Assembly: GCA_003330885.1 (NCBI GenBank)
Contig: CP030277.1
Location: 2,418,001-2,482,000 of the forward strand
Origin: Rhodobiaceae bacterium
Lineage (GTDB): Bacteria > Pseudomonadota > Alphaproteobacteria > Parvibaculales > Parvibaculaceae
Direction: 5' to 3'
Length of the DNA: 64,000 bases
Positions within the stretch are counted from its first letter, which is position 1; each line of letters starts with the position of its first letter. The position numbers and the translations under genes are program-made. The notes beneath the pieces are model-generated. The model was not told the DNA's origin. It did not search any database and saw only the letters and a program-made list of their open reading frames with translations. Shown here in pieces: positions 41,765-64,000 of this stretch.

Positions 41765-41776
41765 ATTCTGTCGCTC

Positions 41777-42667: not shown

Positions 42668-42710
42668 TTTCTTTTCCTCATCGGCAAGTCTGTTGGGTTC
42701 AGACACAGTT

Positions 42711-44857: not shown

Positions 44858-46096
44858 ATGACCAATTTGTCCACAAGAGACACATTGTTACAGCACGCAG
44901 CCTCAGTGCCACTCAATGAGATGGACGTGAGCGATTTTGATTTGCACGAGCACAATGCAACAGCGCCCTACTTTGAGCGTCTGCGCCATCAAGACCCGGT
45001 GCACTATCTAGCTGATAGCCCGTATGGACCTTTTTGGTCCATCACCAAGTACGACGATATCAAAGCCGTTCACGCTGACAATAGGAGGTTTTCATCCGAG
45101 GGTAGCATCCACCTTGAGGATAGGCCTGAGGACTACAAGATAGAGATGTTCCTTGCCATGGACGAACCGAGACATGGCGAGTTACGCAGAGCGGTTTTTC
45201 CAGCGGTCAGCCCCAAGTCACTAGGTGGATTTGAGGACATTATCCGCGCGCGTGCCATCACAATTCTCGACAGCTTGCCGGTCGGAGAGACTTTTAACTG
45301 GGTGGAACGGGTGTCGGTTGAGTTCACCACTCAGATGCTCGCAACGCTGTTCAACTTTCCGTTCGAAGATCGCGCCAAGCTCACACGTTGGTCTGATGCG
45401 GCAATGTCTCAGGAGATGCCTGATGAACAGCGACTCCAGGAATTCACAGAGTGCTACACATGCTTCGCAGAGTTGTGGAAGCAACGCAGCGAAGAAGAAC
45501 CATCTTTTGACATGATCTCCATGCTCGCTCACAGCGATGTGACCAAAGACATGGTCAACAATCCAATGGAGCTTCTCGGAAACATTCTATTGCTGATCGT
45601 TGGAGGCAACGACACCACGCGCAACTCCATTAGCGGCGGCGTGCTAGCCCTGAATGAGTTTCCAAAAGAATATCAGAAGCTGCGTGAAAATCTGGATGTC
45701 ATTCCGAACATGGTCTCGGAAATCATCAGATGGCAAACCCCTTTTGCATATACCCGCAGGACGGCCTTAGAGGACGTTGAGCTCGGGGGAAAACTGATCA
45801 AAAAAGGCGACAAGGTCGCGGCGTGGTACGCCTCGGGAAATCGTGACGAGACAGTATTCCCAGAGCCCGAAAAACTGATCGTCGACCGACCCAACGCTCG
45901 AGATCAAATTTCATTTGGCTTTGGCGTTCATCACTGCATGGGAAGTCGCTTCGCTGAAATGCAACTACGCATCTTGTGGGAAGAAATCATGCAGCGCTTT
46001 GAATTCATTGAGGTGGTTGGTGAGGCTCAACGAGTGCGGTCGAACATCGTACGAGGATACAGTCAGTTGCCCGTACGGTTGCATCCGCCCAAGTAA
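44858..46096 (+). CDS. Cytochrome P450, CYP153-like (alkane hydroxylase family)
   Basis: A 412-residue soluble bacterial P450. The I-helix is GGNDTTRNSISGG, ExxR is in SEIIRWQTP, and the haem loop is FGFGVHHCMG with the Cys ligand. WYASGNRDE and the wording around ExxR are typical of CYP153 terminal alkane hydroxylases. The start at 44858 is preferred over 44843 because GGAG is at 44845-44848. No ferredoxin or reductase gene is nearby, so electrons must come from elsewhere. The gene lies next to the tRNA att site. Confidence 0.87.
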   Translation: MTNLSTRDTLLQHAASVPLNEMDVSDFDLHEHNATAPYFERLRHQDPVHYLADSPYGPFWSITKYDDIKAVHADNRRFSSEGSIHLEDRPEDYKIEMFLAMDEPRHGELRRAVFPAVSPKSLGGFEDIIRARAITILDSLPVGETFNWVERVSVEFTTQMLATLFNFPFEDRAKLTRWSDAAMSQEMPDEQRLQEFTECYTCFAELWKQRSEEEPSFDMISMLAHSDVTKDMVNNPMELLGNILLLIVGGNDTTRNSISGGVLALNEFPKEYQKLRENLDVIPNMVSEIIRWQTPFAYTRRTALEDVELGGKLIKKGDKVAAWYASGNRDETVFPEPEKLIVDRPNARDQISFGFGVHHCMGSRFAEMQLRILWEEIMQRFEFIEVVGEAQRVRSNIVRGYSQLPVRLHPPK

Positions 46097-46303
46097 GACT
46101 TAGAGCCAAAAAAGGTTGCAGGACGCACTCATGCTTCTTCAGATCAATGATTTGTAGGAAGTGTGTAGGTAGTCAGGACAAGAGATTCATGCCTTCTGAT
46201 CCCGATAAGCCTTCTTATTCAACTACATAGACAGGTAGCAACGAACTACAGACACACATCCATCAGGTTTTTCACTCGAACACCGTAGGTCGCGTCAAAA
46301 GCA

Positions 46304-46338
46304 AAAAGCCCCTGATGCGTGAAGCACCAAGGGCTTTT
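46304..46338 (-). terminator. Terminator following the tRNA fragment
   Basis: AAAAGCCC at 46304-46311 pairs with GGGCTTTT at 46331-46338 around a partly paired loop. Read on the minus strand it lies 3 bp after the tRNA CCA end and is followed by T-rich sequence. It is probably the terminator of the original tRNA gene. Confidence 0.75.
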
Positions 46339-46341
46339 CTT

Positions 46342-46388
46342 TGGTTGCGGGGATAGGATTTGAACCTATGACCTTCAGGTTATGAGCC
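46342..46388 (-). other. 3' fragment of an initiator tRNA(fMet) gene: integration site (att)
   Basis: On the minus strand the anticodon loop CTCATAA, stem 3' side, variable loop, a perfect T-arm (ATAGG/CCTAT around TTCAAAT), the acceptor 3' strand CCCCGCA and ACCA are intact. The 5' half (acceptor 5' strand, D-arm) is absent; the sequence beyond 46388 does not pair. This is what remains when an element inserts into a tRNA gene 3' end. The complete gene should be at the other end of the element. Confidence 0.85.
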
Positions 46389-46682
46389 GAATAGTGCAAC
46401 CCCTAAGCATCTGATTTAACTCATATATTTCAGATGAGAAATATGAGTGTGCTAGAAAATGTGCTAATTTCGGCCAATTCCAGGTCTTTTGAGCGCCTCC
46501 TCATTCTTCACTATGAACGAATGTCGCTCGAACCCTTTTGCCACTGCCTTCCTACTTCCAATCCTGCATTAAATTTACATAAAAATACCGTTAAACATAT
46601 CAGATAGTCAACCACCCGCCCATATCGTTGAGCAAACGTTAGAGAATTGGACCAACGCACAGAATATTTCGAACCACAAAAA

Positions 46683-48392
46683 CTATTCGTCTACAGCTTT
46701 TTGCTGCGGAAACAGTAGCTGGCGCCAGTCAATCGGCTCAACAGGATCAAGATGGGCCTCGAGTTCTAAAAGTGCTCGATTGCCCGGCGAATTTTCAACT
46801 GCTGCTGCTACCTGCTTCTCAAGCGCGGTAGGTTGGTCAGCTATTCTAATTCGTTCCGCCAAGAACAGAATTGCAGCTGTTTCAAGAAGCTGAGGAACTC
46901 GAAGCTTGTTCTTTTTGTTTCTTTCCCGAAAGTAGGTGTCCAATACATCTTGATGCGAAGACAAGCTCCATGTTGGAACCAAACCAAACAATAGGTGCAC
47001 AAACATTGATACAACGGAGGGGTCTTCTAATTCCGCCAAGTATTTCCCTCTAATTTTCTCAAAAGAGTCCATTTTCTCATTGGATGAAAGGAAGTGGTTG
47101 AAGAGAAAATATAGAGCCAAAAATGGGCGACGTTCGACAGATGTTGACACATCGAACAGACTCTCAGCTTTTGCAAGCATCTCTCGCAAATCTGTTAGAG
47201 CCGCTCCCTCCTGCCCTTGTATGACGGGCAGCAATTGCTCCAAGAATCCCTCTAGTCTCCTCATCCCATGTTGGATCGTCAGCCCTTCTGAACGCCAAAT
47301 CCAATATTGCGCAGCCATCTGCATAGACATTATGCCCGATTTTTCCATGAGATAGTCATACGGCTCACAATCAGTCTTTGGTTGAGTTTCAACAAACCTG
47401 CGGATCACATGTCGGACGAGACGAGTTAAACCTTGAAACGAAAGCACACTGTTGCCGCTGATCTGCACCACTTCGCCGTACTGCCGATCCAGAGTAAGTT
47501 CTTTAGGTAGCTCCTTCAATTTGTGCACGTATTGGGAGCGGAGATTGTAGGCCTGCCTCAAGGCACCGGGAAGCTCTGCTCTGCTGATAGGCCCGGGCTG
47601 GCCCAATGCTTCTTCTCTGAAATAGGAAGAACTTACGGTGGAGAGCACATATTCTCTGAACCTTCTAGCGAGCGAAACATGTTCTTGCTCCAACAAAACT
47701 TCTCTCACTCGCGCACCTATTGCCGGTTCATATTTATTCAGGACACGATCTATTTTACGCCTCTTCGTTTCATCATAGTCGCTCCAGACAGTTTCATGGC
47801 CGTCAAATTCCTGCACCAGCGACTCGATCGAGGCCACAAGCATCGTGTATGCAAGTTCGAGATCATCTGACAGCCTATGAAGGCCTGTCACATATGTCCG
47901 GATCGCCCTCATGGCTGCGAGGTAGCTCTTTCGCTCTAGGGCAATAAGGTCTTGCGCAAGCGCAATCAAAAGCTCTTCGTCCTGCGGCTTACACCACACC
48001 TCATTGTCAAAGACTCGTCTCACGAGTTTATCTGGGGGCGTAGCTACAGAGAGGGTTCCTTTTCCACTTGTCATGCGAGATGCCAAGTCATAGTCCGGCG
48101 TACTTACTACATTGAGAGCGAAGGACAACACTGCAGAAAAGTCTTGGATGTACGGCTCCATCCCGTGCGAAACTAAGACACCAGGTCCTTTCTCCTCCGC
48201 TTCAATCCGCTCAGTGAGCTCATAAACTACCGCCTTTGCCTCCCGCAATGTACTAGTTGGCTGCAGCCGCCCCATCGCTGTTTCAATCGGTCCGTCACGA
48301 CCCAATCTCAGGTTTGTGTATATGATCCCGCGCAGTTCATTCTGACGCCCAACTTCGCGAGTGAAAAGTTTACCCGAATTTATCTGCAGCAT
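46683..48392 (-). CDS. Unknown protein with a HEPN-type RxxxxH motif
   Basis: A 569-residue, mostly helical soluble protein. Residues 281-290 (AYNLRSQYVH) contain Arg285 and His290 in the R-x4-H arrangement of HEPN ribonucleases, in a helix preceded by a basic region. No other domain is recognised. HEPN proteins are often toxins or antiphage RNases, and its place at the edge of a defence island fits, but activity is inferred. It is alone, with its start at 48392 about 195 bp from the hipA stop. Confidence 0.65.
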   Translation of the reverse strand: MLQINSGKLFTREVGRQNELRGIIYTNLRLGRDGPIETAMGRLQPTSTLREAKAVVYELTERIEAEEKGPGVLVSHGMEPYIQDFSAVLSFALNVVSTPDYDLASRMTSGKGTLSVATPPDKLVRRVFDNEVWCKPQDEELLIALAQDLIALERKSYLAAMRAIRTYVTGLHRLSDDLELAYTMLVASIESLVQEFDGHETVWSDYDETKRRKIDRVLNKYEPAIGARVREVLLEQEHVSLARRFREYVLSTVSSSYFREEALGQPGPISRAELPGALRQAYNLRSQYVHKLKELPKELTLDRQYGEVVQISGNSVLSFQGLTRLVRHVIRRFVETQPKTDCEPYDYLMEKSGIMSMQMAAQYWIWRSEGLTIQHGMRRLEGFLEQLLPVIQGQEGAALTDLREMLAKAESLFDVSTSVERRPFLALYFLFNHFLSSNEKMDSFEKIRGKYLAELEDPSVVSMFVHLLFGLVPTWSLSSHQDVLDTYFRERNKKNKLRVPQLLETAAILFLAERIRIADQPTALEKQVAAAVENSPGNRALLELEAHLDPVEPIDWRQLLFPQQKAVDE

Positions 48393-48586: not shown

Positions 48587-49906
48587 TCAATTCATGTTTC
48601 CAACGATAGCAGCAGCACGTTCTCTCATGCCTAAGCCAATAGCTTCCGCAAGCCTGACTGGGAACCCATCAGGCATTGACCTAATTGTCTCTTGCAATGC
48701 ACCATCTAACGAAAGTTGAATTTCCTCGTATATTTCGATGGCCAAGTTAGTAGACAACGCAGCAGCCTTGGCAGACTGCGCGAAGTGTCGAGGGTGAATA
48801 CGGGAAAGGGCATAGTAACGGCTGTCTCCTGCAGCCATCGCGAGCTTTAGGTCACGCCTCCTCAGCTCGCCTGCCACATAGTTTGGTTGTGCCGACAGTA
48901 CGTCATAGAGAGGTGTCATACGAAAACGCCCTCCTGGCCGCAGAAAGACGCTGAAATTTTTGGCATGCCCGTCGGTGGCCGCCATCATCCAGAAAACTAT
49001 TTGTGACTTTAGAAAAAGACGCTGGTCTTCGTCTGGCCGGTCACTTGTTTTGAGGAGTCTCAGGCATTCGACAATACCAGGGCCTCCCTCAGAGTTATAC
49101 TTTTGAGCGGGTGGAACGGAGAGTGCCTGACAAAAATCTTCTTGAGGCAGCCGAAGAAGCCGTCCATCTTTTGTCCATGAACGGTCAAATCTCTCCACAG
49201 ATAGAACTCGGATGTCTTCAAAGTCGAGAATTTCGGTTTGCGCAACAGGTAAGCCGAGAGCCGAACAGAGGCGCATGCAAAAGTGTTCATTCTCAACGCT
49301 TTCAGTCATGTCTAGACCGTTAGGGAGCTTTCCAATTCGTGGCTTTAGAATATGGGTGGTTGCTGTTGCGCCGATAGGCTCCTGCCACAGACCATCGGAA
49401 AATAGTAATGCGGTTTTTTCCTGTGCACCAGCAATTGATATTCGGAAATCGCGATCATCACCCATTGTTATACCAAGAGGATTGGTGCGAAGCTCGCGGA
49501 GCAATTGGGCAATTTCGGCATTGTTTAACTCGTTGCCGCGTATGTACCCAACCTCTTCGATCGGTTCGTCGATTGGCACAAACTGAAGAGCACCAACACA
49601 GTCTCGCCCAATTTTTGAAAGGAGACTGAATGCGTCTGTATTGATCGCACCAGTTCGTTCCGCCAATCGTTTACGAATAACATCATTATCTGGAAGCAAA
49701 TTCTCAAATACAGCAGCTACTGGCGCACCGATATATTTCTGACGCCGTAGCTTGAGTGACAAAGAAATTGGAAAAGCATTCCGCCAATCCAGCCAGTCTT
49801 CTGAGTACACAAAGGAAATCGCACCGCTACTCGCACGTTCGAGGATGCCCACATTGCGCCCATTGAGGACGACATGCAGTTTTCCACTTAGGCGCGGGGG
49901 AGCCAC
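48587..49906 (-). CDS. hipA: HipA family serine/threonine kinase toxin
   Basis: A 439-residue HipA. The regulatory P-loop is RISIAGAQEKTAL (Ser157 equals the autophosphorylated Ser150 of E. coli HipA), HILKPR holds the ATP Lys, DGHAKNFS the catalytic loop, and PLYDVLS the metal Asp. In E. coli it phosphorylates glutamyl-tRNA synthetase and causes growth arrest; the target here is unknown. Start is GTG at 49906, sharing one base with the hipB TAG (TAGTG), so translation is coupled. Confidence 0.93.
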   Translation of the reverse strand: MAPPRLSGKLHVVLNGRNVGILERASSGAISFVYSEDWLDWRNAFPISLSLKLRRQKYIGAPVAAVFENLLPDNDVIRKRLAERTGAINTDAFSLLSKIGRDCVGALQFVPIDEPIEEVGYIRGNELNNAEIAQLLRELRTNPLGITMGDDRDFRISIAGAQEKTALLFSDGLWQEPIGATATTHILKPRIGKLPNGLDMTESVENEHFCMRLCSALGLPVAQTEILDFEDIRVLSVERFDRSWTKDGRLLRLPQEDFCQALSVPPAQKYNSEGGPGIVECLRLLKTSDRPDEDQRLFLKSQIVFWMMAATDGHAKNFSVFLRPGGRFRMTPLYDVLSAQPNYVAGELRRRDLKLAMAAGDSRYYALSRIHPRHFAQSAKAAALSTNLAIEIYEEIQLSLDGALQETIRSMPDGFPVRLAEAIGLGMRERAAAIVGNMN

Positions 49907-50175
49907 TAGAAGATATCCTCGATCCGCGCACTACTCTGACTACGCGTCTGGATGACTATTTCGATGTCGAGGGCGGCGATGACATCAAAAATTGTTTGGA
50001 GTTTCACCCCAGGTTGGCCAGCTTCAATCTTTGATATCGTTTTTTGATACGAACCGATCTTTTTCGCTAGATCGGTCTGAGTTAGCTCCAAATTCCGACG
50101 TCGGTTTCGAAGCACCTGTCCGAGCTGCTCTGGACTCCGGGCAATTGCTTCAGACATGGCCTTTTCATATGACAT
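49906..50175 (-). CDS. hipB: HipB antitoxin/repressor (Xre family)
   Basis: An 89-residue protein. The HTH is EQLGQVLRNRRRNLELTQTD followed by LAKKIGSYQKTISKIEAGQ. It would neutralise HipA and repress the operon. Start at 50175 is chosen because the longer reading to 50247 covers the repeat-containing promoter region. Three TATACCC(C) elements spaced 27 bp lie just upstream and are likely its operators. Confidence 0.9.
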   Translation of the reverse strand: MSYEKAMSEAIARSPEQLGQVLRNRRRNLELTQTDLAKKIGSYQKTISKIEAGQPGVKLQTIFDVIAALDIEIVIQTRSQSSARIEDIF

Positions 50176-50183
50176 ATCCGGAA

Positions 50184-50357
50184 TATACCCTAAACGACAT
50201 ATATTGTCAATATACCCCAAATAGGATAAAAATAAAATATACCCCAAAGAGTATATTTACAATGTCAACGAACAAGACCGTAGAGGACACCCACCCATTG
50301 ATCGAAACTTACATTGTAGTCAGGTATATTGGGTTGGAATCCACCAAAGTATACCCC
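50184..50357. promoter_or_regulatory. Array of TATACCCC elements between hipB and the CBASS operon
   Basis: TATACCC(C) occurs at 50184, 50211 and 50238 (exactly 27 bp apart, same orientation), again as the reverse complement GGTATATT at 50323-50330, and as TATACCCC at 50350-50357. The last two flank a weak inverted repeat 55-90 bp before the CD-NTase start. HipB operators in other bacteria are similar short repeated sites; control of both divergent operons by HipB is an inference. Confidence 0.65.
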
Positions 50358-50411
50358 ATATAGATTTATGGACATTTGGACATCTTAAGACTCAGCTGGA
50401 CAACCAAACCA

Positions 50412-51434
50412 ATGACCCCCAACGCCCGGTTTACAGAATTTATTACCGACATCACGCCTAGCACAACAACAAATAACCGCTCGGCGGCGGCTCATACATC
50501 GGTGAGAAATGCACTAACGAACGACGCTGATTACAAGAATGAAGTTATCCGTACATTTCTTGGGGGATCATACAAACGCAAAACAGCTATACGACCCGTT
50601 ATGAAAGACGGGGAGACCGAACGGCCCGACGTTGACATCTATGTTGTTGTGAACGGATCAGAATGGTCGAAAAGCCCAGAAGACATCATCAACGACCTAT
50701 ATTCCGCACTCAATCGAAGCCGCACCGAGCTAAACATCACTCGCCTAAAACGCAATAGATGTTCCATCGCAGTATCAACTGACAAAGCAGATATGGATGT
50801 ATCTCCGTTGCTGGAAAGAAGTTGGTCCGGTTTCTACCGTATTGGAAACCGCAACACGGGTGAATGGTACAACACAGACCCCGAAGGCCACACGACATGG
50901 TCAGCCAGCGTAAACAAAGGCGCGGGAAATCGATTCAATCCAATGGTCAAAATGCTGAAATGGAATCGACGCGAGTTTCCAACGAAAAACAAACATCCGA
51001 AAAGCATCGCATTGGAGGCTCTGGTAGCAAAACACATGAGCCGAACCGAGACCCACTATGGAAAATTGCTCCACGACACATTCGATGACATTGTTTCTGC
51101 GTATTCCATGAGCAGATTTCTCGGCACCTGCCCAACCATTGAAGATCCTTGTGTTCCCGGCGGCGATCTGCTCGGTGGTGTATCAGGAGAAGCTTTTTCC
51201 GCCTACTACGACAAACTCGAATATTTCCGCGATGAGGCCCGCAAAGGTTTGGATAGCGCGACGCAGGAAACAGCGACCAAGCATTGGCGGCGCATATTGG
51301 GACAACGCTTTCCCGCACCAAAATCAACCGGAACAACAAACTCGTCAGCTCTAAAATCTTCCATAGGCGTATCTCCACTATCATTTCCAGCAAAAGCATC
51401 AACCCCCCCCAACAAGCCTGCTGATTTCGCGTGA
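50412..51434 (+). CDS. CD-NTase (cGAS/DncV-like nucleotidyltransferase) of a type II CBASS-like operon
   Basis: A 340-residue nucleotidyltransferase. The active-site motif is FLGGSYKRKT (G51-G52-S53) followed by RPDVDIYV with Asp73 and Asp75; a third acidic site is DMDV (Asp127/129). This is the GGS-x(n)-DxD pattern of cyclic-oligonucleotide synthases. On phage infection such enzymes make a second messenger. Start ATG 50412 is preferred to TTG 50376, though its ribosome site is weak. The stop overlaps the next start by 4 bp. The product nucleotide cannot be read. Confidence 0.88.
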   Translation: MTPNARFTEFITDITPSTTTNNRSAAAHTSVRNALTNDADYKNEVIRTFLGGSYKRKTAIRPVMKDGETERPDVDIYVVVNGSEWSKSPEDIINDLYSALNRSRTELNITRLKRNRCSIAVSTDKADMDVSPLLERSWSGFYRIGNRNTGEWYNTDPEGHTTWSASVNKGAGNRFNPMVKMLKWNRREFPTKNKHPKSIALEALVAKHMSRTETHYGKLLHDTFDDIVSAYSMSRFLGTCPTIEDPCVPGGDLLGGVSGEAFSAYYDKLEYFRDEARKGLDSATQETATKHWRRILGQRFPAPKSTGTTNSSALKSSIGVSPLSFPAKASTPPNKPADFA

Positions 51435-53161
51435 CTATATGGTGGATGGAAAACCACTTACGGCTCAGTGAGGAACGCACCTCAATAGACGACCTGCGGT
51501 CAAAAGCTGATTGGCTGGAGAACGTGGAATGGTCGCTGGATGACAACAGCTGCATACGCATCATATTCGACATAAGACTCGACCACGATACTTTCAACCT
51601 TCAACTCACCTACCCGAATACATTTCCCAGTTCCGTTCCAAATATCACTCCTACTTGCAAAATTCGACTCTCGGAACACCAATATGGGAATGGCGACCTG
51701 TGCCTGGAAATACGACCAGACAATTGGCGGACCGAGTTCACCGGCGCTGACATGATTCAAAGCGCATTTAACCTACTAGACACGGAAAGGCCAGGCGTTG
51801 ATGGAACCAGTACCACAGCACCATCAGCTCACGATGTGCCAGAAGCTATCAGCATTCGTCACGAGATAAGCCGCTTCTACATCAGCCCTGAACATTTAGC
51901 AGTCATCACCACTGAAGCACACCGAGGGCTTACAGCAACACTTTGGGCATTATGGACAAACGAGAGCTTCATAGTTACCCACATCAAATCGCTCGAAGCA
52001 AATGATTGGTCTTGGGTCAACACATCAGTTCCTACGGCACTAAAGGAAAATACGCTCCCCCGAAAAGCGGTTGTGATCAAGACCGAGAAAAAGAAGTCTG
52101 CCTTTGGCAAAGTATCAAAAACTGAAGATCTCGGTAATATCTTGGGCAACCATCAGGAGCTAACCAAGACAAGTTACCATTGCATAGTCATCACCGCAGA
52201 CAATGAGGTCCTTCTCTTTCACCAAATCGAAGAGGTTAAGGGCTTAATACGCTACCGCACAATTATTGCTCCAAACGAAAACCAGCGACGATCAGGGGAG
52301 GAATATGCGGAGGTTGATAAAGTCCGAATAGGAATTGTGGGACTAGGCTCACTTGGATCAAAAATCGCAGTGTCTTTAGCCCGCGTTGGCATTGGTCGTT
52401 TCGATCTAATAGACGGAGATATTCTACATCCCGGAAACTTAGAACGCCACGACGCAGATTGGCGCGACATCGGCGCACATAAAGTCGATGCAGCCAAACA
52501 ACGAATGACACTTGTATCGCCAAATATTGAGATATCTGCTCGCCGCGTTTCCATCGGCGCACAAGTATCTGCAACCGAAGCTAGCAATGTCAACGGCGCC
52601 CTCGATAATTGCGACCTGATAATTGATGCAACGGCCAACCCAAATGTTTTTAACCATTTAGCTGGCATTACTACTGCATCAAGAAAAACACTGGTGTGGG
52701 GGGCTATTTACGCCGGAGGAATCGGTGGGTATATCGCACGCTCCAGACCAGACAAAGATGCCGGCCCATTTTTGATTAGGCAAGCGCTAAACGAGTTTTA
52801 CGAAACTATTGACGAGTCTCCCCCTACTACCGACAGAGAAGGTTATGATGGGCGGCGCGGAGACGAAGTGTTCATCGCTACAGACTCGGAAGTGTCAGTT
52901 ATCGCAAACCATATGACCAACTTCGCGCTCGACGCTTTGTTAGCAAGGGAGCCATCCTATTACCAAGATGCTGTTTATTTCATTGGTCTAAAAAGAGAAT
53001 GGGCATTTGAAGGGCCATTCCATGTCCAACCGATCAGCGTCACAGCATCAAATCACGGAAAGCAGAAAACAGGAAAGTGGGATCCTGTCCAGGCAGAGTT
53101 TTTGGGCGAGTTACTGGACCTGAAGCGCAATGAAATTGAGAATAGAAGAAAAAACAGTTAG
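51431..53161 (+). CDS. Cap2-like E2-E1 fusion (ubiquitin-transfer-like) protein
   Basis: A 576-residue fusion. Residues 1-120 are an E2-like domain with the Cys91 site in NGDLCLEIRPDNW. About 140-290 is a linker domain, and 298-520 a ThiF/E1 adenylation domain (GIVGLGSLGS at 301-310, LIDGD, NLERHDADW, DLIIDAT). In type II CBASS, Cap2 joins the CD-NTase C-terminus to a target and primes it. No cysteine occurs after Cys394, so the usual E1 catalytic Cys is not apparent. Start GTG at 51431 overlaps the upstream stop (GTGA). Confidence 0.88.
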   Translation: MTIWWMENHLRLSEERTSIDDLRSKADWLENVEWSLDDNSCIRIIFDIRLDHDTFNLQLTYPNTFPSSVPNITPTCKIRLSEHQYGNGDLCLEIRPDNWRTEFTGADMIQSAFNLLDTERPGVDGTSTTAPSAHDVPEAISIRHEISRFYISPEHLAVITTEAHRGLTATLWALWTNESFIVTHIKSLEANDWSWVNTSVPTALKENTLPRKAVVIKTEKKKSAFGKVSKTEDLGNILGNHQELTKTSYHCIVITADNEVLLFHQIEEVKGLIRYRTIIAPNENQRRSGEEYAEVDKVRIGIVGLGSLGSKIAVSLARVGIGRFDLIDGDILHPGNLERHDADWRDIGAHKVDAAKQRMTLVSPNIEISARRVSIGAQVSATEASNVNGALDNCDLIIDATANPNVFNHLAGITTASRKTLVWGAIYAGGIGGYIARSRPDKDAGPFLIRQALNEFYETIDESPPTTDREGYDGRRGDEVFIATDSEVSVIANHMTNFALDALLAREPSYYQDAVYFIGLKREWAFEGPFHVQPISVTASNHGKQKTGKWDPVQAEFLGELLDLKRNEIENRRKNS

Positions 53162-53609
53162 AGATTGGCGCCGCTCTCTACTCAACGCGATGACGCGGGA
53201 AATAGGAGGCGTCCTTTATGGAGAGCACGTCGGAGAAGCAGATTTTCGGGTTGTGGCCTTCAGCACGCAAACCGTCGGAGGCGATCAAACGAGTTTTCGC
53301 CGTGATGCACTCATCGCAAAAAGAGAACTTAGCGAAATGGCAAACGTGTTCGGAAACGAGCACAGTCGCTTCAATTACCTTGGTGAATGGCACTCCCATC
53401 CAAACGCGGAAGCACTACCTAGTCCAAAAGATATTGCCACCATGCACAACCTTTTGACGGATCCAACAACCAATGTAAATTTCCTAATACTCATAATTGT
53501 TCGACTCTCTCGGCACAACACTGTTGAAGTATCAGCACACACCTTTTTGGCCTCGGGACATACATTGCAGTGCGAAATTATGATTGAGAAAGGCGAAAGA
53601 GAACAATGA
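53130..53609 (+). CDS. Cap3-like JAB/JAMM isopeptidase
   Basis: A 159-residue metalloprotease with a complete JAMM site: Glu24 in REIGGVLYGE, His88-Ser-His90, and Ser98/Asp101 (E, HxH-x7-SxxD). Cap3 enzymes remove CD-NTase from its conjugation target and antagonise Cap2. The start overlaps the Cap2 gene by 32 bp and its stop overlaps the next ATG (ATGA), so the four genes are tightly coupled. Confidence 0.9.
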   Translation: MKLRIEEKTVRDWRRSLLNAMTREIGGVLYGEHVGEADFRVVAFSTQTVGGDQTSFRRDALIAKRELSEMANVFGNEHSRFNYLGEWHSHPNAEALPSPKDIATMHNLLTDPTTNVNFLILIIVRLSRHNTVEVSAHTFLASGHTLQCEIMIEKGEREQ

Positions 53610-54334
53610 CTGACTGGTCTCTACCCGTTTTGTTTAAGGGCCTCAGCGATACAATACAAAGAAAACTGGAGGTAACTCGCCAGACAATCGGGCACCCCGG
53701 TAGCAAGGGAGATGCAAGCGAGAAAGTTTGGCTGGACCTATTCAGACAATATCTACCTCAGAGATATCAAGCGGAAGCTGCTCACGTGGTCGACAGCGAA
53801 GGAAACTTCAGTGAACAGATAGATGTTCTGATTTTTGATCGACAGTATTCTCCCTTCATTTTTCAACACGAGGGTACCTATGTAGTGCCCGCAGAAAGCG
53901 TATACGCAGTTTTTGAGGCAAAGCAGACGATGAACGCCGGTCTAGTTGAATATGCACAGAAGAAGGTTGCTAGCGTCCGGCGCCTAAAACGCACAAGCCT
54001 CCCGATACCATACGCTGGAGGCATATATCGACCAAAAACTCCAATCAATATCCTAGGTGGTTTGCTTACGCTGGAGAGCGATTGGAAGCCTCCTCTTGGA
54101 GAGTCACTACAAAAGTCATTGTCAGGCGACCAAGAAGATGGGCGTCTTGATATGGTATGTGTTTCCTCACATGGATTCGCCATGTACGACGGAGGGCTCG
54201 GCAAATACTCGGTCACAGAAAATGGAAAGCCTGCAACCGGCTTTTTGTTTCGACTAATTTCCAAACTTCAATTTTGCGGAACGGTTCCTATGATAGACGT
54301 TGACGCCTACTCAAAGTGGCTCGATGTAGGTTAG
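53606..54334 (+). CDS. DUF6602-like, PD-(D/E)XK-type putative CBASS effector
   Basis: A 242-residue protein in the effector position. GHPGSKGDASEKVW, LPQRYQ and FSEQIDVLIFDRQYSPF match the DUF6602 pattern. Glu39, Asp73 and Glu104-x-Lys106 (FEAK) form a PD-(D/E)XK-like set, suggesting a nuclease. No SAVED, NucC-like, HNH, TIR, patatin or membrane domain is seen. The C-terminal 110 residues are uncharacterised and could bind the messenger. That it is the effector is inferred from operon position and coupling. Confidence 0.75.
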   Translation: MTDWSLPVLFKGLSDTIQRKLEVTRQTIGHPGSKGDASEKVWLDLFRQYLPQRYQAEAAHVVDSEGNFSEQIDVLIFDRQYSPFIFQHEGTYVVPAESVYAVFEAKQTMNAGLVEYAQKKVASVRRLKRTSLPIPYAGGIYRPKTPINILGGLLTLESDWKPPLGESLQKSLSGDQEDGRLDMVCVSSHGFAMYDGGLGKYSVTENGKPATGFLFRLISKLQFCGTVPMIDVDAYSKWLDVG

Positions 54335-54395: not shown

Positions 54396-55007
54396 TTACA
54401 GTTCCAACGCATAGAGCTCCTGAATTTCCTCCGACTGGATACAGAGGTACTCCAGCGTCTGCTGCTGTGTAGCATGACCGAACGCTTCCATAAGGAGAGG
54501 AACTGCTGCGCGGTTTTGAACCCGCTGATGGTAGCCCCAGGTCTTGCGTAGTGAGTGAGAACCAAAGTTCCCCTTCATACCAGCGGTGTCACACCAGTCT
54601 TTGACCATATTGGTGATGGTGGAGACGGTGAGCGCTGAACCACGTTTACGCGAAACAAATAGCGGCGATTGTGGCCGGGGGTCAGGGTGCACTGCAATCC
54701 AGGACTGAATTGCATTCACGACCAATTGATTAAACGTGGTCGCCCGATATTTCTTTGTTTTTTGTTGTTTGAGCTCAAATCGATCTCCGACTCCCAGGTG
54801 AGCAACATCACCTACTCTTATGCTGAGCAGTTCACTTGCCCGATAGGCTGTGTTGATACCGATGGTAAAAAGACAGAGGTCACGCGGCATATCTACAAGC
54901 CGCTTTTTGATGCGTTTGATATCTCGAAGGTCGCGGATTGGTTCAACTTTTATGGTCGAACCCTTCTTTGGATGATTGGGGTTTTTCTGTCTTTTTGGCA
55001 TGCCCAT
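54396..55007 (-). CDS. Small tyrosine recombinase (catalytic domain only)
   Basis: About 203 residues with the full catalytic set: Arg in NTAYRASELLSI, Lys region QQKTKKY, His-x-x-Arg in SHSLRKTWG, His in FGHATQ and Tyr in TLEYL. The usual N-terminal arm- and core-binding domains are nearly missing. It resembles plasmid resolvases (ResD-like) more than tRNA-site integrases. Start may be 55007 or 55001. It is convergent with the CBASS operon. Confidence 0.85.
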   Translation of the reverse strand: MGMPKRQKNPNHPKKGSTIKVEPIRDLRDIKRIKKRLVDMPRDLCLFTIGINTAYRASELLSIRVGDVAHLGVGDRFELKQQKTKKYRATTFNQLVVNAIQSWIAVHPDPRPQSPLFVSRKRGSALTVSTITNMVKDWCDTAGMKGNFGSHSLRKTWGYHQRVQNRAAVPLLMEAFGHATQQQTLEYLCIQSEEIQELYALEL

Positions 55008-55219
55008 CCATCTCTCTGATCTTTCAAATCTGAATCCCAACTATTATCTAAAAGTTGGGATAAGTATATGCCGACTGCTCTTCAGAGCAACTTCTTTCTG
55101 TGAGCCTTCAACTCGACATCAAGAAAAACCCTTGCCACAGGGCGTTAGCGGCTGAATGCCAAATTCTAGATAAATTCATTGATTTATTTTGGTTCAAAAA
55201 AGCCGCCAACTGCGCACAG

Positions 55220-56275: not shown

Positions 56276-56623
56276 TTGGGATTCAAAAAAGAGAAGAAGA
56301 TAGGTGGACATTCAGCTGACGAGCGCGCTCGTTGGCACAAAGCAACAAAGCAGGCTGCTCCAAACACGTGGCGTACGGTAGAGCAGATAAAGAAAGATGC
56401 TTTTCAGGGGGCATCAGACGCCTTTCTACGACGCTTTGAAGAGCACGAAGATCTCATTGATGAAGGCCGCGCACATCGGGCAGAGCAAGCTTCAAAGAGC
56501 GCGGAAACGGCTCTATACATCGGGCCGGGACAAATACGCATCCCGAAAGGTTGGCCATCACTCCTGGAGTGGACAAAGGGCACACCACTCCCACCTGATG
56601 ATGGTAAAGACTTAGAGTATTAG
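56276..56623 (+). CDS. Small unknown protein, probable cargo gene
   Basis: 115 charged, helical residues. The start is TTG at 56276, with GGAG at 56269-56272 unusually close. KPxGWPSLLEW-like RIPKGWPSLLEWTKGTPLP is the most distinctive stretch. It overlaps the convergent relaxase stop by 4 bp. No function can be assigned and the frame itself is moderately certain. Confidence 0.45.
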   Translation: MGFKKEKKIGGHSADERARWHKATKQAAPNTWRTVEQIKKDAFQGASDAFLRRFEEHEDLIDEGRAHRAEQASKSAETALYIGPGQIRIPKGWPSLLEWTKGTPLPPDDGKDLEY

Positions 56624-57624
56624 AGATCATGTTCATCCAGATCGTCACGCACCCTGCTGGCGATCTTGTCTTTTCTGGGACGCTTTAAGCGTTCCATCAT
56701 GCTGAGTTGACGGCCAAACACCCAATCCCTCAAGGTGACCCCTGCACGGACGACACGGTCTTTCAGCCCCCGTGCTAAATCCCAATAGTTGGCAGGCTGC
56801 TGGCGCTCGTCATGTCGTTCCTCGGCATAGTCACTAAACGACTTTCCGAAACGTTCTTCCAACTCAGTCTTCCGAACCTTTTTGCCCATCTCCGAGAGTT
56901 TCGCGTATTTCTCTCCATTGGTAAGTATGAGACCAGGGCCTTTGGCGTAGAGCGTTACCCCTTCCTCCTGAAGCTTCTGCTCCAGAATTTCCCAGCTATC
57001 AGCTGCTTCGAAGGCAGGAGTGAGCCTATCCTTCAGCTCCGTCACATCTTCCTTGCTCCAATGGTCGAGGGTTGTCACATCCAATCGCTCGGCCATCCTC
57101 TGTTCGCCTTTGTGTGGGCGACGAGGCTCCTTCTCGAACCGCTCCTCACTAGACAGCCTCCCTGGCACTTCAGTCAGGCCCAGCTCCTTCTCCTGGGCCT
57201 TGAGCGACTTTTCCAGGCGCGTCTTGTATTTCCACTTCTCCCAGGCAACGCCTGTCTCCGGATGCACCCGATTGACCATCACATGGAGGTGGGGGTGATC
57301 CGTATCGTTATGGGCAACGATAATGGCCTGATGCTCTTCCAAGCTAAGATCGGCAAGGGTCCGGTCTGCGACCTTGAGCATATCTTCTTGGCAGAGCTGC
57401 TCATATTCAGGCCAACTAATGGAATAATGAAAAACGGGGTCTTCCACCCGTTTCGACAAGGACGCTGTCGCTCTCATCATGGAGGGAACCAGGTCAGGGT
57501 CCGCTGTCGGCAAATTGCGGGCCGCCGTCCATTCTACCCTTTCTGGACTATCGCCCTTTCGACCGAAATGGAGATATTTGGCCAGCCCGCTAAAGCCGGA
57601 TCCTGTACGGGCGTCTCCAATCAT
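56620..57624 (-). CDS. Relaxase / mobilization nuclease (MobA/VirD2-like)
   Basis: A 334-residue relaxase. The metal-binding motif III is HNDTDHPHLHVMVN (His105, His110, His112, His114). Tyr17 in LAKYLHFG is a candidate nicking Tyr. The C-terminal half is charged and helical with no primase or helicase domain. It would nick oriT and pilot DNA to the coupling protein. It follows MobC by 14 bp in the same direction. Confidence 0.9.
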   Translation of the reverse strand: MIGDARTGSGFSGLAKYLHFGRKGDSPERVEWTAARNLPTADPDLVPSMMRATASLSKRVEDPVFHYSISWPEYEQLCQEDMLKVADRTLADLSLEEHQAIIVAHNDTDHPHLHVMVNRVHPETGVAWEKWKYKTRLEKSLKAQEKELGLTEVPGRLSSEERFEKEPRRPHKGEQRMAERLDVTTLDHWSKEDVTELKDRLTPAFEAADSWEILEQKLQEEGVTLYAKGPGLILTNGEKYAKLSEMGKKVRKTELEERFGKSFSDYAEERHDERQQPANYWDLARGLKDRVVRAGVTLRDWVFGRQLSMMERLKRPRKDKIASRVRDDLDEHDL

Positions 57625-57638: not shown

Positions 57639-57968
57639 CTACCCGATCCGGCGCACAGCCGAAAGAACTTCCCCTAAGGCCGTTTCCAGTGCCTGAGCGA
57701 CTGGAAACTGGCCTGCATGGGCAAGCTTCGTCAGTTGGTTGAGGTTATTCCCGAGAGCCGTTAACTGACGGATAGTTTCGGCTGCAACGCGTGTCGGTTT
57801 TGCCTTAGGCTTCTCGCCCAAAGCTGACGCGCGCACAAATGCTGCATGGGTTAACCCGCTGGCCTCAGCTGCTTCTTGCAGCTGCGCGAACTCTCCCGCT
57901 GTGAAGTAGGCCTTCACGCAGCGGGTCCGTCGTTCGCTCTCTGGCTTGCGGTAATCCCTGGTTGGCAT
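57639..57968 (-). CDS. mobC: Relaxosome accessory protein MobC
   Basis: A 109-residue protein. RTRCVKAYFTAGEFAQLQEA, GLTHAAFVRASALG and LTALGNNLNQLTKLAHAGQ are the usual MobC segments. The N-terminus is ribbon-helix-helix-like, for DNA binding. It helps open oriT for the relaxase. Its start is 75 bp from the candidate oriT inverted repeat. Confidence 0.9.
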   Translation of the reverse strand: MPTRDYRKPESERRTRCVKAYFTAGEFAQLQEAAEASGLTHAAFVRASALGEKPKAKPTRVAAETIRQLTALGNNLNQLTKLAHAGQFPVAQALETALGEVLSAVRRIG

Positions 57969-58198: not shown

Positions 58199-60484
58199 AT
58201 GTCAAAAGGTGCAAAATCTCTACTAGCGGCTCTCGGCATATTCATCTTTGCCTTTCTGTTCTCCAATATCATCCCGAGTTTCACAAAACCGCTGATCCAA
58301 TTGTCTTTTGTCAGCTGTCTCGGGTACGGCCTTTACAGGGTCAGCAAAGATAAATACACCGCTTCCATGGCAGCCAGGACCGATGAGCCGAAAGTTACAA
58401 ATCCAACCCTTCTCGAAGCCGCTCGTGCCGAAGGCGAAAAGATAAAGGCCGCACAGCAACACTCAGTCACGCCAGAAAATGACGATAGGGCCAAACGCTG
58501 TTCAGAGATCCTCTCTCTGATGGATGATGAGGCAGCGATTGCCGTGTTTAATGCGGGGGCCGTCATGACGGATGAAGAGCATAAGAACTTCAAAAAGACC
58601 GTCGATCGAGAGACCAGCGAACCGCACAAGTTTCAGGGAATAGATGCCCAGGCGCTGGGCAACGCCGCTGGTCACATTATCGGAAGGGAGATCGGTAATT
58701 TCGCCCGGAACCTCTCAACCGGACGCTATCCAAACGATGTGTCCTTTAGCTCCGCAGTTGGCAGCATCTCTGAGTCCAACCGCCAATTTCTGAGGATTGG
58801 AAGCATCTTGATGAAACACGAGATTCTTGAACAGGAATGGTTAGAAAGCGCCCTTGCTAGCGTGATCTTCACGAGCGGGAACCAGTCGGTACATGAAATC
58901 AAAAACAATGCGGAACGTTGGACAATTGCGTTCAAGGTGTTGTTAGAAACACTGGGAAACTGCCTAGTGAATGAGGACCATCTCCAGCAAGAGATGGTTA
59001 GCATCACTGCTCAAATTCAAAGAGAGCAGCCACACTCCAAAGTTGGGCAGGAATTGGCGAAGCTGGCGGATGGGGGCGCCGCCTGGCTCAACGGTGCCGA
59101 CATTCCAAACAGCATCTACAATCCGATCTTGGGAAATGGCCTCTTCTTGGGTGAACTGGAAGACGGAACCCGGCTGAACTACGATGGTGAAGGGTCCCTC
59201 TTCACCATTGCTCCTCCCGGTGCAGGCAAAAGCCGTTGTCAGGTCATCCCAAACTTACTGGTCTACGATGGTCCCGCGATCGTGCTCGATATCAAGGGCG
59301 AGTGCTACGAAGATACAGCCGGACATCGCTCGCAACGATATGGCAAAGTCATTCGCTTTGCCCCTCACGATAAAGAAACGTCGGCCCGGTATAACCCGCT
59401 TGAGTTCGTAAGAAGTGACCCGGAGCACATCGCATCGGATGCCCGCAAAATGGCAGACATGCTGATCGTCTCAGATGGAAGAACAAAAGACCCTTACTGG
59501 CAAAATAAAGGCCGAGATTTTCTAACAGCCTATATTGCCTTTATCGCACTCCTTCCCGAAAGTGATCCAGAGCGTACGATGCAGTCGGTCATGGATATGA
59601 TGTCACCAACTGAGGACATGCTCACAAACGCTGTCGATGAGCTACGAAAAACCGGGATCAAATATCTTGGTCGGATCGCAAACCAGATTACGACCATGCC
59701 GGAGAAACAGCGGGAATCTGCGATGGACGTCGCAAGAGAACAGCTTAGTGCGTGGGATTTGGGCGACCTGGACAGTGTAACAACCCATTGTGATTGGAAG
59801 CCGGAGGACTTTAGAAGCTCAAGCAGCCCAACAACACTTTACCTCTGTGTTCTACCTGAAGACATTGACCGCTTTGCATCTGTGCTGCGGGTAATCATTG
59901 GTCAGCACCTTGAGTACTTCATGAAGGAGATACCTGAAAAAGCAGAACGACCCATTGTCTTCTTCCTCGATGAAGTGCCACAGCTTGGTAACTTCGAACC
60001 ACTTCCCAAAGCTGCGTCTCTTGGACGGCAGTATGGACTACAACTCTGGCTGTTCGCACAAAACCGCGACCAGATAGAGAAAGCATACAAAAGCGCCGAC
60101 ACAATACTTGGCAACGCCGTCGTGCAATGCTGGATGAATTGCGATGAAGATTCAGCAGCTAAGCTTGAAAGAAACCTTGGCACCTCACGAGGCCTTCTGG
60201 ATGGCAAGACAAAACCCCTTGTCCAATCACACGAGCTGCGGGGGCCAGAATATGATGACAAGATAATTGTCGTTGGCCGGGGTCAAAAGCCCGCCAAGCT
60301 CACTAAGCGCATGGTGTTTGATGATCCTGAGCTTAGCGGGCTTGTCGGACTTGATTTCAACTCAGGTAGTGGTAGTGCTGTCGTCGAGGAAGCGATCCCT
60401 TCCCCTTCTGCCGTCGACGAGATACCGGAGACAGCGGTTGAGCCTGACATTGGACAGCCAGTTGAAACCAGTCAGCCCAGGTGA
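58199..60484 (+). CDS. VirD4/TraG-type coupling protein (T4CP)
   Basis: A 761-residue ATPase. Two N-terminal membrane helices (LLAALGIFIFAFLFSNIIP and LIQLSFVSCLGYGLYRV), a long helical insert to about 310, Walker A APPGAGKSR near 340, Walker B IVFFLDEVPQLG, and QYGLQLWLFAQNRDQI further on. It links a relaxosome to a type IV secretion channel. The start has CAGGAAG upstream. Its presence without other transfer genes indicates that the island borrows a channel. Confidence 0.9.
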   Translation: MSKGAKSLLAALGIFIFAFLFSNIIPSFTKPLIQLSFVSCLGYGLYRVSKDKYTASMAARTDEPKVTNPTLLEAARAEGEKIKAAQQHSVTPENDDRAKRCSEILSLMDDEAAIAVFNAGAVMTDEEHKNFKKTVDRETSEPHKFQGIDAQALGNAAGHIIGREIGNFARNLSTGRYPNDVSFSSAVGSISESNRQFLRIGSILMKHEILEQEWLESALASVIFTSGNQSVHEIKNNAERWTIAFKVLLETLGNCLVNEDHLQQEMVSITAQIQREQPHSKVGQELAKLADGGAAWLNGADIPNSIYNPILGNGLFLGELEDGTRLNYDGEGSLFTIAPPGAGKSRCQVIPNLLVYDGPAIVLDIKGECYEDTAGHRSQRYGKVIRFAPHDKETSARYNPLEFVRSDPEHIASDARKMADMLIVSDGRTKDPYWQNKGRDFLTAYIAFIALLPESDPERTMQSVMDMMSPTEDMLTNAVDELRKTGIKYLGRIANQITTMPEKQRESAMDVAREQLSAWDLGDLDSVTTHCDWKPEDFRSSSSPTTLYLCVLPEDIDRFASVLRVIIGQHLEYFMKEIPEKAERPIVFFLDEVPQLGNFEPLPKAASLGRQYGLQLWLFAQNRDQIEKAYKSADTILGNAVVQCWMNCDEDSAAKLERNLGTSRGLLDGKTKPLVQSHELRGPEYDDKIIVVGRGQKPAKLTKRMVFDDPELSGLVGLDFNSGSGSAVVEEAIPSPSAVDEIPETAVEPDIGQPVETSQPR

Positions 60485-61972: not shown

Positions 61973-62524
61973 TCAAGAAATTAGAATGTCCAACACACTT
62001 TTCTGAAGCTTTTCATATGAGAGCCCCGGGAAGGTTCTATCTACATCGGTAACGCCCAACGCATGAACCATGAACGCCCTCACTTTGGCATCTTGCGGTG
62101 CGAACCCCATATCCTTGAAAATTCGCACAAGGTTTTTGCGCGAGACGTCATCCAGCTTCTGGATTGATTGTGCAGCAACTTCATTGCTTTTCGCCCAGGC
62201 CCGCATCGCGGACATCAGCCGATACCCATCGTCAGCTTCAATGATTCTTCTTATGGCTTCAAGCTCAACAATCGGGTCACCTTTGGCTTCTTCCCGGGCG
62301 TGATCAAAGATCAGACTAAGATGGTCGCCGGAAAAGTAATTCGCCAGATCGGTCAGGAAGTCATCAAGGCCCCTGAAATGGTGATAAAAGCTCCCCTTGG
62401 TAACGCCCAGCCGGTCGGTCAGTGACTTTACGCTGACACCATCGACCCCTTCGACCCGCAGGATGTCCTGACCGGCATGAAGCCAGTCTTCCTGTAATAG
62501 TCCCGTACCCAATCTGCTCATCAA
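61973..62524 (-). CDS. TetR family regulator
   Basis: A 183-residue TetR. HTH: DILRVEGVDGVSVKSLTDRL followed by GVTKGSFYHHFRGLDDFL; the C-domain is helical. It is divergent from the alpha/beta hydrolase at 62654, whose upstream region holds a short inverted repeat. It likely controls that hydrolase and the VOC gene after it. It marks the return of host-like sequence. Confidence 0.87.
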   Translation of the reverse strand: MMSRLGTGLLQEDWLHAGQDILRVEGVDGVSVKSLTDRLGVTKGSFYHHFRGLDDFLTDLANYFSGDHLSLIFDHAREEAKGDPIVELEAIRRIIEADDGYRLMSAMRAWAKSNEVAAQSIQKLDDVSRKNLVRIFKDMGFAPQDAKVRAFMVHALGVTDVDRTFPGLSYEKLQKSVLDILIS

Positions 62525-62600
62525 ACCCTCGTCTGCGCTACGTCAAACTGATGTAGAACATTTTGCTTGCCATTCCAAACCATACTTGAGAGCATGTTTA

Positions 62601-62622
62601 AAAGATACCCGAAGGTATTTTT
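62601..62622. promoter_or_regulatory. Candidate operator or hairpin between tetR and hydrolase
   Basis: ATACC (62605-62609) and GGTAT (62614-62618) are perfect arms around CGAA, extended outward by A/T pairs with one mismatch. It lies 31 bp from the hydrolase ATG. It may be a TetR site; an RNA hairpin is the alternative. Confidence 0.4.
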
Positions 62623-62653
62623 TGTACTCGTTAACTGAGGCATGGGGAGTGTG

Positions 62654-63490
62654 ATGAGGACAGAAACACACATACTGAATGAACTACACGCGATCCGGTA
62701 TGTGCCGGATAGCGCGGAATACGCCCTCGTCATTTCCCACGGCCTCGGCGGCTATGGCGGTATCTACGATGTCTTCTGTGAACACCACGCTGCCAAAGGC
62801 GTCGACATATGGTCTTACGACGCGCCGGGCCATGGCCGTTCCACCATGAACCGCGCCAGAGGCACCTGGACGATGGAAGAATGGGCACAAGCCAGCCGGG
62901 ACTGGGCAGCTCATGTGAAACAGAAAACAGGTCTCCCCGTCTTTCTTCTTGGATCGAGCCTGGGGGCCGCGGCAGCAATTTCGGCGATCGACGAGGACGC
63001 CGTAGACGGTGTCATCATCATGGGCTCCGCCGCCGTCCCTGGCAGCGCACTGGTTAGAGCGGCAACAGAAGATTGGCGTAACCCTGCGGTCAACAAAATC
63101 ATCGAAAGCCTCGGACGCGCGGTCAGGCTGGACATCGACATCATGTTCAATTTTGACGAGGACTATGGATATAAAGGCGCCTCTGAACAAAAGAAGTCAG
63201 ACCCGCTCAACACCTGGTCATATGACCTCGCCTCCTGGGCGTCTTTTCTTCAATACGACCCCCCTCAACCCCTCAGCGACAACACCAAGCCGGTCCTGTT
63301 CACGGCAGGTACTGATGATCCCAATTTCCCGCCCGGCACCGTCGAAGCGATTGCAAGCGAAGTCGGCGGCCCGGTGAGCGTTGAAATATTCGACGGCGCG
63401 CATCATCAGCTAATGCTGTTTGAAACCGATAAATTCTCAACATGCACCGACCAATTTTGTCGTGCCAACATCCAATCCGCGGAGTCCTGA
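62654..63490 (+). CDS. Alpha/beta hydrolase (lysophospholipase-like)
   Basis: A 278-residue hydrolase with the whole triad visible: oxyanion segment SHGLGGYGGIYD, nucleophile in LLGSSLGAAAAI, Asp in TAGTDDPNFPPG and His in DGAHHQLM. It fits monoglyceride lipase or lysophospholipase-type enzymes. The start at 62654 has GGGGAG 4 nt upstream; ATG 62642 is an alternative. The VOC gene starts 1 bp after its stop. Confidence 0.87.
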   Translation: MRTETHILNELHAIRYVPDSAEYALVISHGLGGYGGIYDVFCEHHAAKGVDIWSYDAPGHGRSTMNRARGTWTMEEWAQASRDWAAHVKQKTGLPVFLLGSSLGAAAAISAIDEDAVDGVIIMGSAAVPGSALVRAATEDWRNPAVNKIIESLGRAVRLDIDIMFNFDEDYGYKGASEQKKSDPLNTWSYDLASWASFLQYDPPQPLSDNTKPVLFTAGTDDPNFPPGTVEAIASEVGGPVSVEIFDGAHHQLMLFETDKFSTCTDQFCRANIQSAES

Positions 63491-63491
63491 A

Positions 63492-64000
63492 ATGTCCAAA
63501 CTCAATTCGGTTCATCACATTGCGATTTCCACAGGCGATATGAAAAAGCAAATCGCTTTCTTCAGCGATGTCTTGGGCATGGAACTCATGGCCCTCTACT
63601 GGATGCATGGTGCCGAGAATGCATGGCACGGATTTATGAAGTTGGGCGAGGAGTCCTTTGCCTTCGTTTATGTTCCAAAAAACGAAGAGATAGAATCGAC
63701 CACTGGCGTCACCCATGCAGGCAATGGCGCAGGAGGTTCTGCCCCCGGCACGATGCAGCACATCGCGTTCAATGTGGCGACACGAGACGACCTCCTCCAC
63801 ATGCGCGACCGGATACGCTCCCGCGGCGTCAACGTTCTCGGCCCTGTGCTTCACGGCCTTTGCCAGTCCATCTATTTCGCCGGCCCCGAGGGGCTGGTCC
63901 TGGAAGTAAGCACATCCGAAGGTGCAACAGCTCCGCTTGATACAAATGGTACATGGATTGACATGGAAGTCGTCGAGCTTGCGGGCATCTCTTCTGACGA
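63492..64000 (+). CDS. VOC family protein, 3' end cut by window edge
   Basis: At least 169 residues. The start at 63492 follows the hydrolase stop by one base. Module one: SVHHIAISTGDMKKQIAFF with the first metal His; module two: GTMQHIAFNVATRDDLLHMR and YFAGPEGLVLEVST with the final Glu. It is a metal-binding VOC enzyme, perhaps a dioxygenase or lyase acting with the hydrolase. The gene continues past the window. Confidence 0.85.
   Translation, partial: MSKLNSVHHIAISTGDMKKQIAFFSDVLGMELMALYWMHGAENAWHGFMKLGEESFAFVYVPKNEEIESTTGVTHAGNGAGGSAPGTMQHIAFNVATRDDLLHMRDRIRSRGVNVLGPVLHGLCQSIYFAGPEGLVLEVSTSEGATAPLDTNGTWIDMEVVELAGISSD

Follow-up and report, generated by a model that had tools for sequence, protein, structure and literature searches.

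The tRNA fragment at positions 46342–46388 of the window (the whole stretch of DNA analyzed, 64,000 nucleotides long, corresponding to positions 2418001–2482000 of the single-contig, 3,862,255-bp genome of a Rhodobiaceae bacterium, hereafter G000) is very probably (about 0.94) the attR site of a 34.3-kb integrative mobilizable element inserted into the only host-type initiator tRNA gene of the genome. The sequence itself shows a 57-bp direct repeat, the geometry of the two ends, the integrase, an empty site, matched arm repeats, a sister element, and the mobilization genes; the precise point of exchange, the ability to excise today, and transfer via the secretion channel of a helper are inferred.

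The fragment lies on the minus strand and all its 47 bases (47/47, 100%) are identical to positions 31–77 of an intact tRNA-Met(CAU) gene (G000:C1:2498652–2498728), a stretch that begins with the final two bases of the anticodon stem on its 5′ side and runs through the CCA. The precise 3′ half of tRNA(fMet) described in the original prediction was therefore found to equal the 3′ end of the intact gene without mismatch. The next 10 bp past the CCA also match, which gives an exact direct repeat of 57 bp (46332–46388; the other copy, at G000:C1:2498642–2498698, is 100% identical), and the bases flanking the two copies differ at both sides. Since the repeat is perfect, it is not due to chance. The second copy is located 34,310 bp away, to the right of the window end, and both the rightward extension of the element and the intact tRNA(fMet) gene anticipated at its far end were thus confirmed. 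An element extending leftward was also considered and is excluded by the polarity of the tRNA and by the junction in a relative (G003). Since no tRNA was called in the window by either ARAGORN or Rfam, the 47 bases are a fragment. When it was used as a query against the genome, only three matching places were obtained: the fragment itself, the intact gene (hereafter tRNA_B, 100%), and a second, island-borne initiator tRNA (tRNA_A, 88%); host-type tRNA-fMet is therefore present in one copy according to this similarity search. The hairpin just past the CCA of the fragment is a strong terminator (Table 1), which had been correctly recognized as still attached. The border with AT-rich DNA was upheld only in part: the G+C content drops from about 0.50–0.58 left of the fragment to 0.45–0.50 at 46–56 kb, but this drop is not sustained, the value being back to 0.57 at 57–58 kb and the catabolic genes further rightward being richer in G+C.

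At the far end, past the window, the order on the minus strand is, reading leftward, tRNA_B, a terminator, a 405-aa tyrosine integrase, tRNA_A, and the cargo. The integrase gene is located directly 3′ of tRNA_B, between the intact tDNA and the displaced fragment. Its Pfam score (22.7) is under the Pfam gathering score (27.1); in a strong nine-member alignment of relatives of the integrase, the motifs RGKRG and SLRHTYI and the final tyrosine, which we take to be catalytic, are kept. The tRNA_B sequence is identical to that of the tRNA-fMet of three other genomes of the genus (G002, G003, and G005), and the terminator following it in G000 and G002 differs from the native one and is of the element type.

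Six other genomes belonging to the same genus (G001–G006) were searched. G003, G005, and G006 each contain one intact tRNA-fMet, and in these relatives without the island, which had been proposed for comparison, neither the tRNA fragment nor an integrase of this island's family was found. When the ends of the island are joined, the result is colinear with the G003 site along the 5′ flanking DNA, the complete tRNA gene, and its native terminator. The terminator adjoining the fragment in the window is therefore the host's own. The empty-site junction was matched in this way for G003, and for G005 and G006 the empty site is based on the single tRNA with no fragment or integrase of this family. 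It might be argued that a decayed tRNA copy of unrelated origin accounts for the fragment and that the change in composition is a coincidence, since the left flank is variable and similar fragments occur in G001 and G004 without an integrase of this family; in view of the perfect 57-bp repeat, the integrase, the arm repeats at both ends, and the clean empty site, this is extremely improbable, and a decayed tRNA without any element at all is contradicted by the empty site. We take the G001 and G004 fragments to be remnants at a recurrently used site. The 3.4 kb between tRNA and fragment in G001 contain TetR-like, oxidoreductase-like, and membrane-protein ORFs, as assigned from their translations. 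Fragments are also present elsewhere in the bacterial family, and the initiator tRNA site is used repeatedly. The G002 genome carries two fragments 14.8 kb apart (L058:13198 and L059:8041) downstream of one tRNA-fMet, with only one integrase of this family at the locus, which is a tandem array including a remnant.

The DNA to the left of the fragment does not consist simply of core chromosome. The fragment of the sister element in G002 adjoins the counterpart of window positions 33963–35135, and the tRNA of G005 adjoins that of positions 13474–13800. As this flank is not conserved core, an older neighboring insertion or a rearrangement is possible. The approximately 11 kb at positions 35200–46100, which encode a 1613-aa ORF, an SMP-30-like protein, a hydrolase, a TetR regulator, and a P450, have no counterpart at the G002 junction and are possibly an older insertion.

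Table 1. Coordinates of the attachment site and of the genes of the island (window positions, or contig positions where L024 is given)
Feature	Position	Strand	Evidence
Native tRNA-fMet terminator hairpin, outside the island	46303..46339	-	-25 kcal/mol, z -6.1; same in G003
attR, 57-bp direct repeat with displaced 3′ part of tRNA-fMet (46342-46388)	46332..46388	-	Identity to G000:C1:2498642-2498698
attR arm-type direct repeat TAGCACATTTTCTAGCACA	46448..46466	-	Two occurrences in 97 kb
569-aa protein, first gene within the island	46683..48392	-	No family match
HipA-like kinase toxin	48587..49906	-	HipA_C 1.3e-51, Couple_hipA 4.1e-27
HipB-like antitoxin	49906..50247	-	couple_hipB 2.4e-14, under NCBIfam cut-off
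CBASS cyclase (CD-NTase)	50376..51434	+	SMODS 2.1e-42; PADLOC Cyclase 3.9e-134
CBASS E1-E2 (Cap2-like)	51431..53161	+	PADLOC E1-E2 5.2e-183
CBASS JAB protease (Cap3-like)	53130..53609	+	PADLOC JAB 3.1e-46
CBASS effector nuclease NucC	53606..54334	+	PADLOC NucC effector 5.7e-104; Pfam DUF6602
Second, short tyrosine recombinase, 214 aa, mainly catalytic part	54396..55040	-	Phage_integrase 1.8e-18; phrog_216 integrase
MobP-type relaxase	56620..57624	-	Relaxase PF03432 3.9e-29; TraI/MobP 2.6e-48, under cut-off
MobC/NikA-like mobilization protein	57639..57968	-	NikA-like 4.6e-19, MobC 1.1e-9
Type IV coupling protein (TraG/VirD4-like)	58199..60484	+	T4SS-DNA_transf 2.6e-63
Catabolic cargo cluster, start	61973..64000		Pfam; runs on to genome ~2,496,900 (L024:15864)
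Spare initiator tRNA (tRNA_A)	L024:16028-16104	-	ARAGORN; beyond window
Tyrosine integrase, 405 aa	L024:16317-17534	-	Beyond window
Regenerated tRNA-fMet (tRNA_B)	L024:17652-17728	-	ARAGORN; beyond window

The first gene within the island encodes a protein showing no match in Pfam, PADLOC, NCBIfam, or PHROGs, and is followed by a HipA/HipB-like pair and by a complete type II CBASS, the CD-NTase, E1-E2, JAB, and NucC genes of which are adjacent and on one strand (50376–54334, +). The cargo located after the coupling protein consists of genes for TetR regulators, acyl-CoA synthetases, dehydrogenases, an HsaA-like monooxygenase (below the cut-off), a sulfatase, a permease, an enoyl-CoA hydratase, a ChsH2-like protein, and a thiolase. 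A relaxase and accessory mobilization genes were identified with Pfam, and no type IV secretion channel proteins were found among the island proteins scanned with Pfam, in which small ORFs were partly covered; this combination is that of an integrative mobilizable element. Elements of this kind, such as SGI1, encode an integrase and mobilization genes of their own but no secretion channel, and the same holds for the present island, from which SGI1 reportedly differs in its integrase, target, and cargo. The sister element in G002 also has a spare tRNA, and its proteins are 75% (integrase), 32% (coupling protein), 59% (MobC), and 51% (relaxase) identical to those of G000; the short recombinase has a 78% identical counterpart at the matching place. 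The remaining G000 cargo, including the catabolic cluster, has no match in the G002 element.

A paired direct repeat consisting of TARCACA, 4–5 bp, and TARCACA occurs exactly twice in 97 kb when both strands are considered, once near each end of the island: as TAGCACATTTTCTAGCACA at 46448, some 60 bp into the island from attR, and as TAACACACCTCTAACACA between the integrase gene and tRNA_B. The expectation is 0.003 per shuffled island, a value based on single-base shuffles and on a motif picked after viewing the ends. In G002, the counterpart at attL is TTACACATTCGCTACACA, and those at the two fragments (attR) are TTACACATTTTGCTACACA and TTACACACTTTGCTACACA; the G002 element carries a variant of its own at attL and both attR sites, so that each element has its own matched variant. 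As regards the crossover, the sequence TTCGG is found just before the loop CTCATAA in five fragments (one in G000, two in G002, and one each in G001 and G004), where the host tRNA has TCAGG, and this difference fits a crossover inside the anticodon loop; a sixth fragment, on contig 21 of G001, does not have TTCGG. Strand exchange would therefore most likely take place in the anticodon loop (CTCATAA), with the arms of the anticodon stem serving as core binding sites. This position corresponds to subsite A of the Islander classification, which is a common one according to the available sections of that study (2083 of 3919 islands; PMC4383910).

The arrangement of the two ends can be accounted for by a mechanism in which the 405-aa tyrosine integrase, encoded next to attL, would have recombined attP with attB. 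The element would have supplied its own tRNA 3′ half and terminator, thereby restoring a complete host tRNA at the right end; the original 3′ half, together with its native terminator, would have been displaced to the left end.

The second initiator tRNA, tRNA_A, has paired acceptor, anticodon, and T stems and keeps the C1xA72 mismatch, which we take to be the initiator hallmark. Its anticodon stem is CAAGG/CCTTG, as against TCAGG/CCTGA in the host tRNA, and the anticodon loop is unchanged. The cloverleaf is supported by ARAGORN, by Rfam (60.1 bits), and by stem-by-stem pairing; minimum-energy folding gave no cloverleaf. The copies in G000 and G002 are 96% identical, as compared with 26% over the 100 bp downstream and 58% upstream, where a conserved block is present (ungapped comparisons). 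The possibility that tRNA_A might be a second host gene was rejected, as G003, G005, and G006 each have one tRNA-fMet and a 25-base pattern carrying the CAAGG stem was detected in only 2 of 385 genomes of the class (G000 and G002), both times inside islands. The integrase family is present in 21 of 385 class genomes from the same kind of sample, and the chance of both CAAGG genomes being among those 21 is about 0.003, a figure which makes the evidence look stronger than it is because the two belong to the same genus and one is the query genome. The pattern was also found in 1/247 genomes of the family of the Neorhizobium genome and in 1/33 of the genus of the Ensifer genome described below, in both cases the genome already known.

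Among 80 loci encoding related integrases, which were obtained from named records, the integrase gene is immediately preceded by a tRNA-Met(CAU) in the same orientation in 27, and three of these 27 have a second tRNA-Met(CAU) downstream: those of Ensifer (L151), Neorhizobium (L164), and a Hyphomicrobiales bacterium (L174), in the last of which the spare is in the opposite orientation. All five spares (G000, G002, L151, L164, and L174) have the CAAGG stem, and the other tRNA-fMet copies found in the L151, L164, and L174 genomes are host-type; the five are not independent, G000/G002 and L151/L164 being close pairs. Within the first 76 positions, the L174 spare shows two differences from that of G000, and the last base differs as well. 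The neighboring genes of these elements differ, including a MobA/MobL protein in L151 and a coupling protein in L174. The view that such a spare is standard equipment of all these integrases was discarded, since apart from G000 and G002 only 3 of the 27 fMet-adjacent loci, several of which have short downstream flanks, carry one near the integrase; the spare is therefore optional. In 11 of the 80 loci (L111, L114, L122, L125, L137, L143, L146, L157, L165, L171, and L184), the integrase is followed, 57–136 bp downstream, by a tRNA-Leu in the same orientation, which suggests a branch of the integrases with another target or geometry. Close integrase relatives also occur on contigs labeled Nitrospinaceae (L107), Gammaproteobacteria (L119), and Methylococcaceae MAG (L136), the first two of which also carry an alphaproteobacterial-type tRNA-fMet; these three are likely to be misbinned contigs.

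Elements with this integrase family are not the only carriers of the CAAGG stem. The stem was found in at least 120 stretches of viral contigs, and with an open stem pattern CAAGG accounted for 12 of 80 viral loci and the host-type TCA/TGA for 15 of 80; in all, 21 stem types (pairs of outer anticodon-stem triplets) were observed in these initiator-like tRNAs, with pairing mostly kept. A phage origin of the spare is plausible, since this stem is common in viral contigs. Similarity searches for initiator-like tRNAs gave 142 of 50,697 phage records and 437 of 72,556 plasmid records. Seven viral contigs (L330, L331, L338, L341, L350, L356, and L366) have a host-type initiator tRNA within about 200 bp of the start of the stretch, as expected for prophages cut at an attL in tRNA-fMet.

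As the host tRNA is rebuilt exactly in G000, the spare looks redundant once the element is in place. It could be of use while strands are being exchanged, on entry into a new host, or where the 3′ half of the element is ill-suited to the host. Of the roles considered, the likeliest, at nearly even odds, is that tRNA_A guards translation while the single host gene is being cut and rejoined, or in case the rebuilt copy is imperfect. A poor fit between the 3′ half and the host may be what is seen in Ensifer (L151): G-U pairs occur in the acceptor stem and in the T stem of its rebuilt tRNA and are absent from the two other host-type copies, and the spare is well paired. The rebuilt tRNA of Neorhizobium (L164) shows no such G-U weakness. 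The weakened rebuilt tRNA of L151 is possibly the first sign of a path leading from regenerating to tRNA-dependent integration. A more tentative idea, to which we give rather low odds, is that the spare may be integration-proof: the altered stem positions coincide with the inferred core sites, and the paired replacement of TCAGG/CCTGA by CAAGG/CCTTG would keep the fold and spoil the core sites of the integrase, so that the spare would be immune to its own integrase and unusable by rivals, and regeneration together with a spare would be the missing step from standard integration at a tRNA toward tRNA-dependent lysogeny. None of the six fragments read in the genus has CAAGG; all are host-type or close to it.

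Two other roles were weighed against these. The spare might be a functionless relic, either a tRNA acquired from a different host or a leftover of an earlier tandem insertion: what looks by eye like a decayed copy of the 3′ end of the integrase gene is present just past tRNA_A in G002, and the tandem fragments indicate repeated insertion. This is unlikely in view of the 96% identity of two copies whose downstream DNA has diverged to 26%, of the stems and C1xA72 being kept, and of the opposite orientation of the L174 spare, which is unexpected in a relic of tandem att sites. It is quite improbable, too, that tRNA_A is counter-defence cargo, the altered anticodon stem of which would survive host VapC-type anticodon nucleases cutting the host initiator tRNA. 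The hypothesis that phage tRNAs evade anticodon nucleases has been published (PMC10264068, available sections), and the frequency of the CAAGG stem in viral contigs (12/80 with the open stem pattern; at least 120 stretches) is in line with it; the evading mutations described in those sections are in the loop, however, which is unchanged in tRNA_A, and tRNA_A adjoins the integrase and not the defence cargo.

An island with such an attachment site is of a well-known kind, tRNA genes being the usual targets. In this genome, an intact tDNA, a downstream fragment in the same orientation, a tyrosine integrase between the two, and an empty site in relatives were all found. As in the Islander-type tDNA islands described in the available sections of PMC4383910, the intact tDNA and the displaced 3′ fragment bound the island, the integrase is inside, the fragment has the correct orientation and position, and the crossover region includes the anticodon loop; unlike those islands, the present one contains, in addition, a complete second tRNA of the same isotype as its target. 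In tRNA-dependent lysogeny, as presented in the accessible part of PMC10865867, integration destroys the host tRNA, so that an element-borne tRNA is needed. The G000 island resembles that system in using a tyrosine integrase at a single-copy essential tRNA and in encoding a tRNA of the target isotype (tRNA_A). It is a mobilizable island, whereas the system described there is a phage, with attP and attB sharing about 10 bp and the tRNA not being rebuilt; such a short common core with an unrebuilt target was not found in G000, where the core is 57 bp long and the tRNA is rebuilt exactly. Prophages and islands of Sinorhizobium meliloti have extra tRNA-fMet genes unlike that of the host, for which the portions of PMC11476347 available give no evidence of reuse as integration sites. 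Those elements are likewise alphaproteobacterial, located in tRNA genes, and equipped with an additional tRNA-fMet; in contrast to the G000-type spares, the same portions report neither an anticodon-stem signature nor a tie to a single integrase family. The phiLM21-like prophages are reported, in the part of PMC12429752 available, without tRNA-dependent lysogeny.

In a partial literature search, no paper was found on exact regeneration together with a stem-recoded spare of the same isotype in mobilizable islands, and it is this combination that we call new. Its interest lies in the fact that an essential single-copy tRNA is rebuilt exactly alongside a second initiator tRNA with a distinct stem, and that regeneration plus spare recurs across elements which share one integrase family and have different cargo and mobilization genes. 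Should the spare turn out to shield the host or to resist integration, it would explain how these elements can exploit a gene the loss of which is lethal, and would outline a path from regenerating to tRNA-dependent integration.
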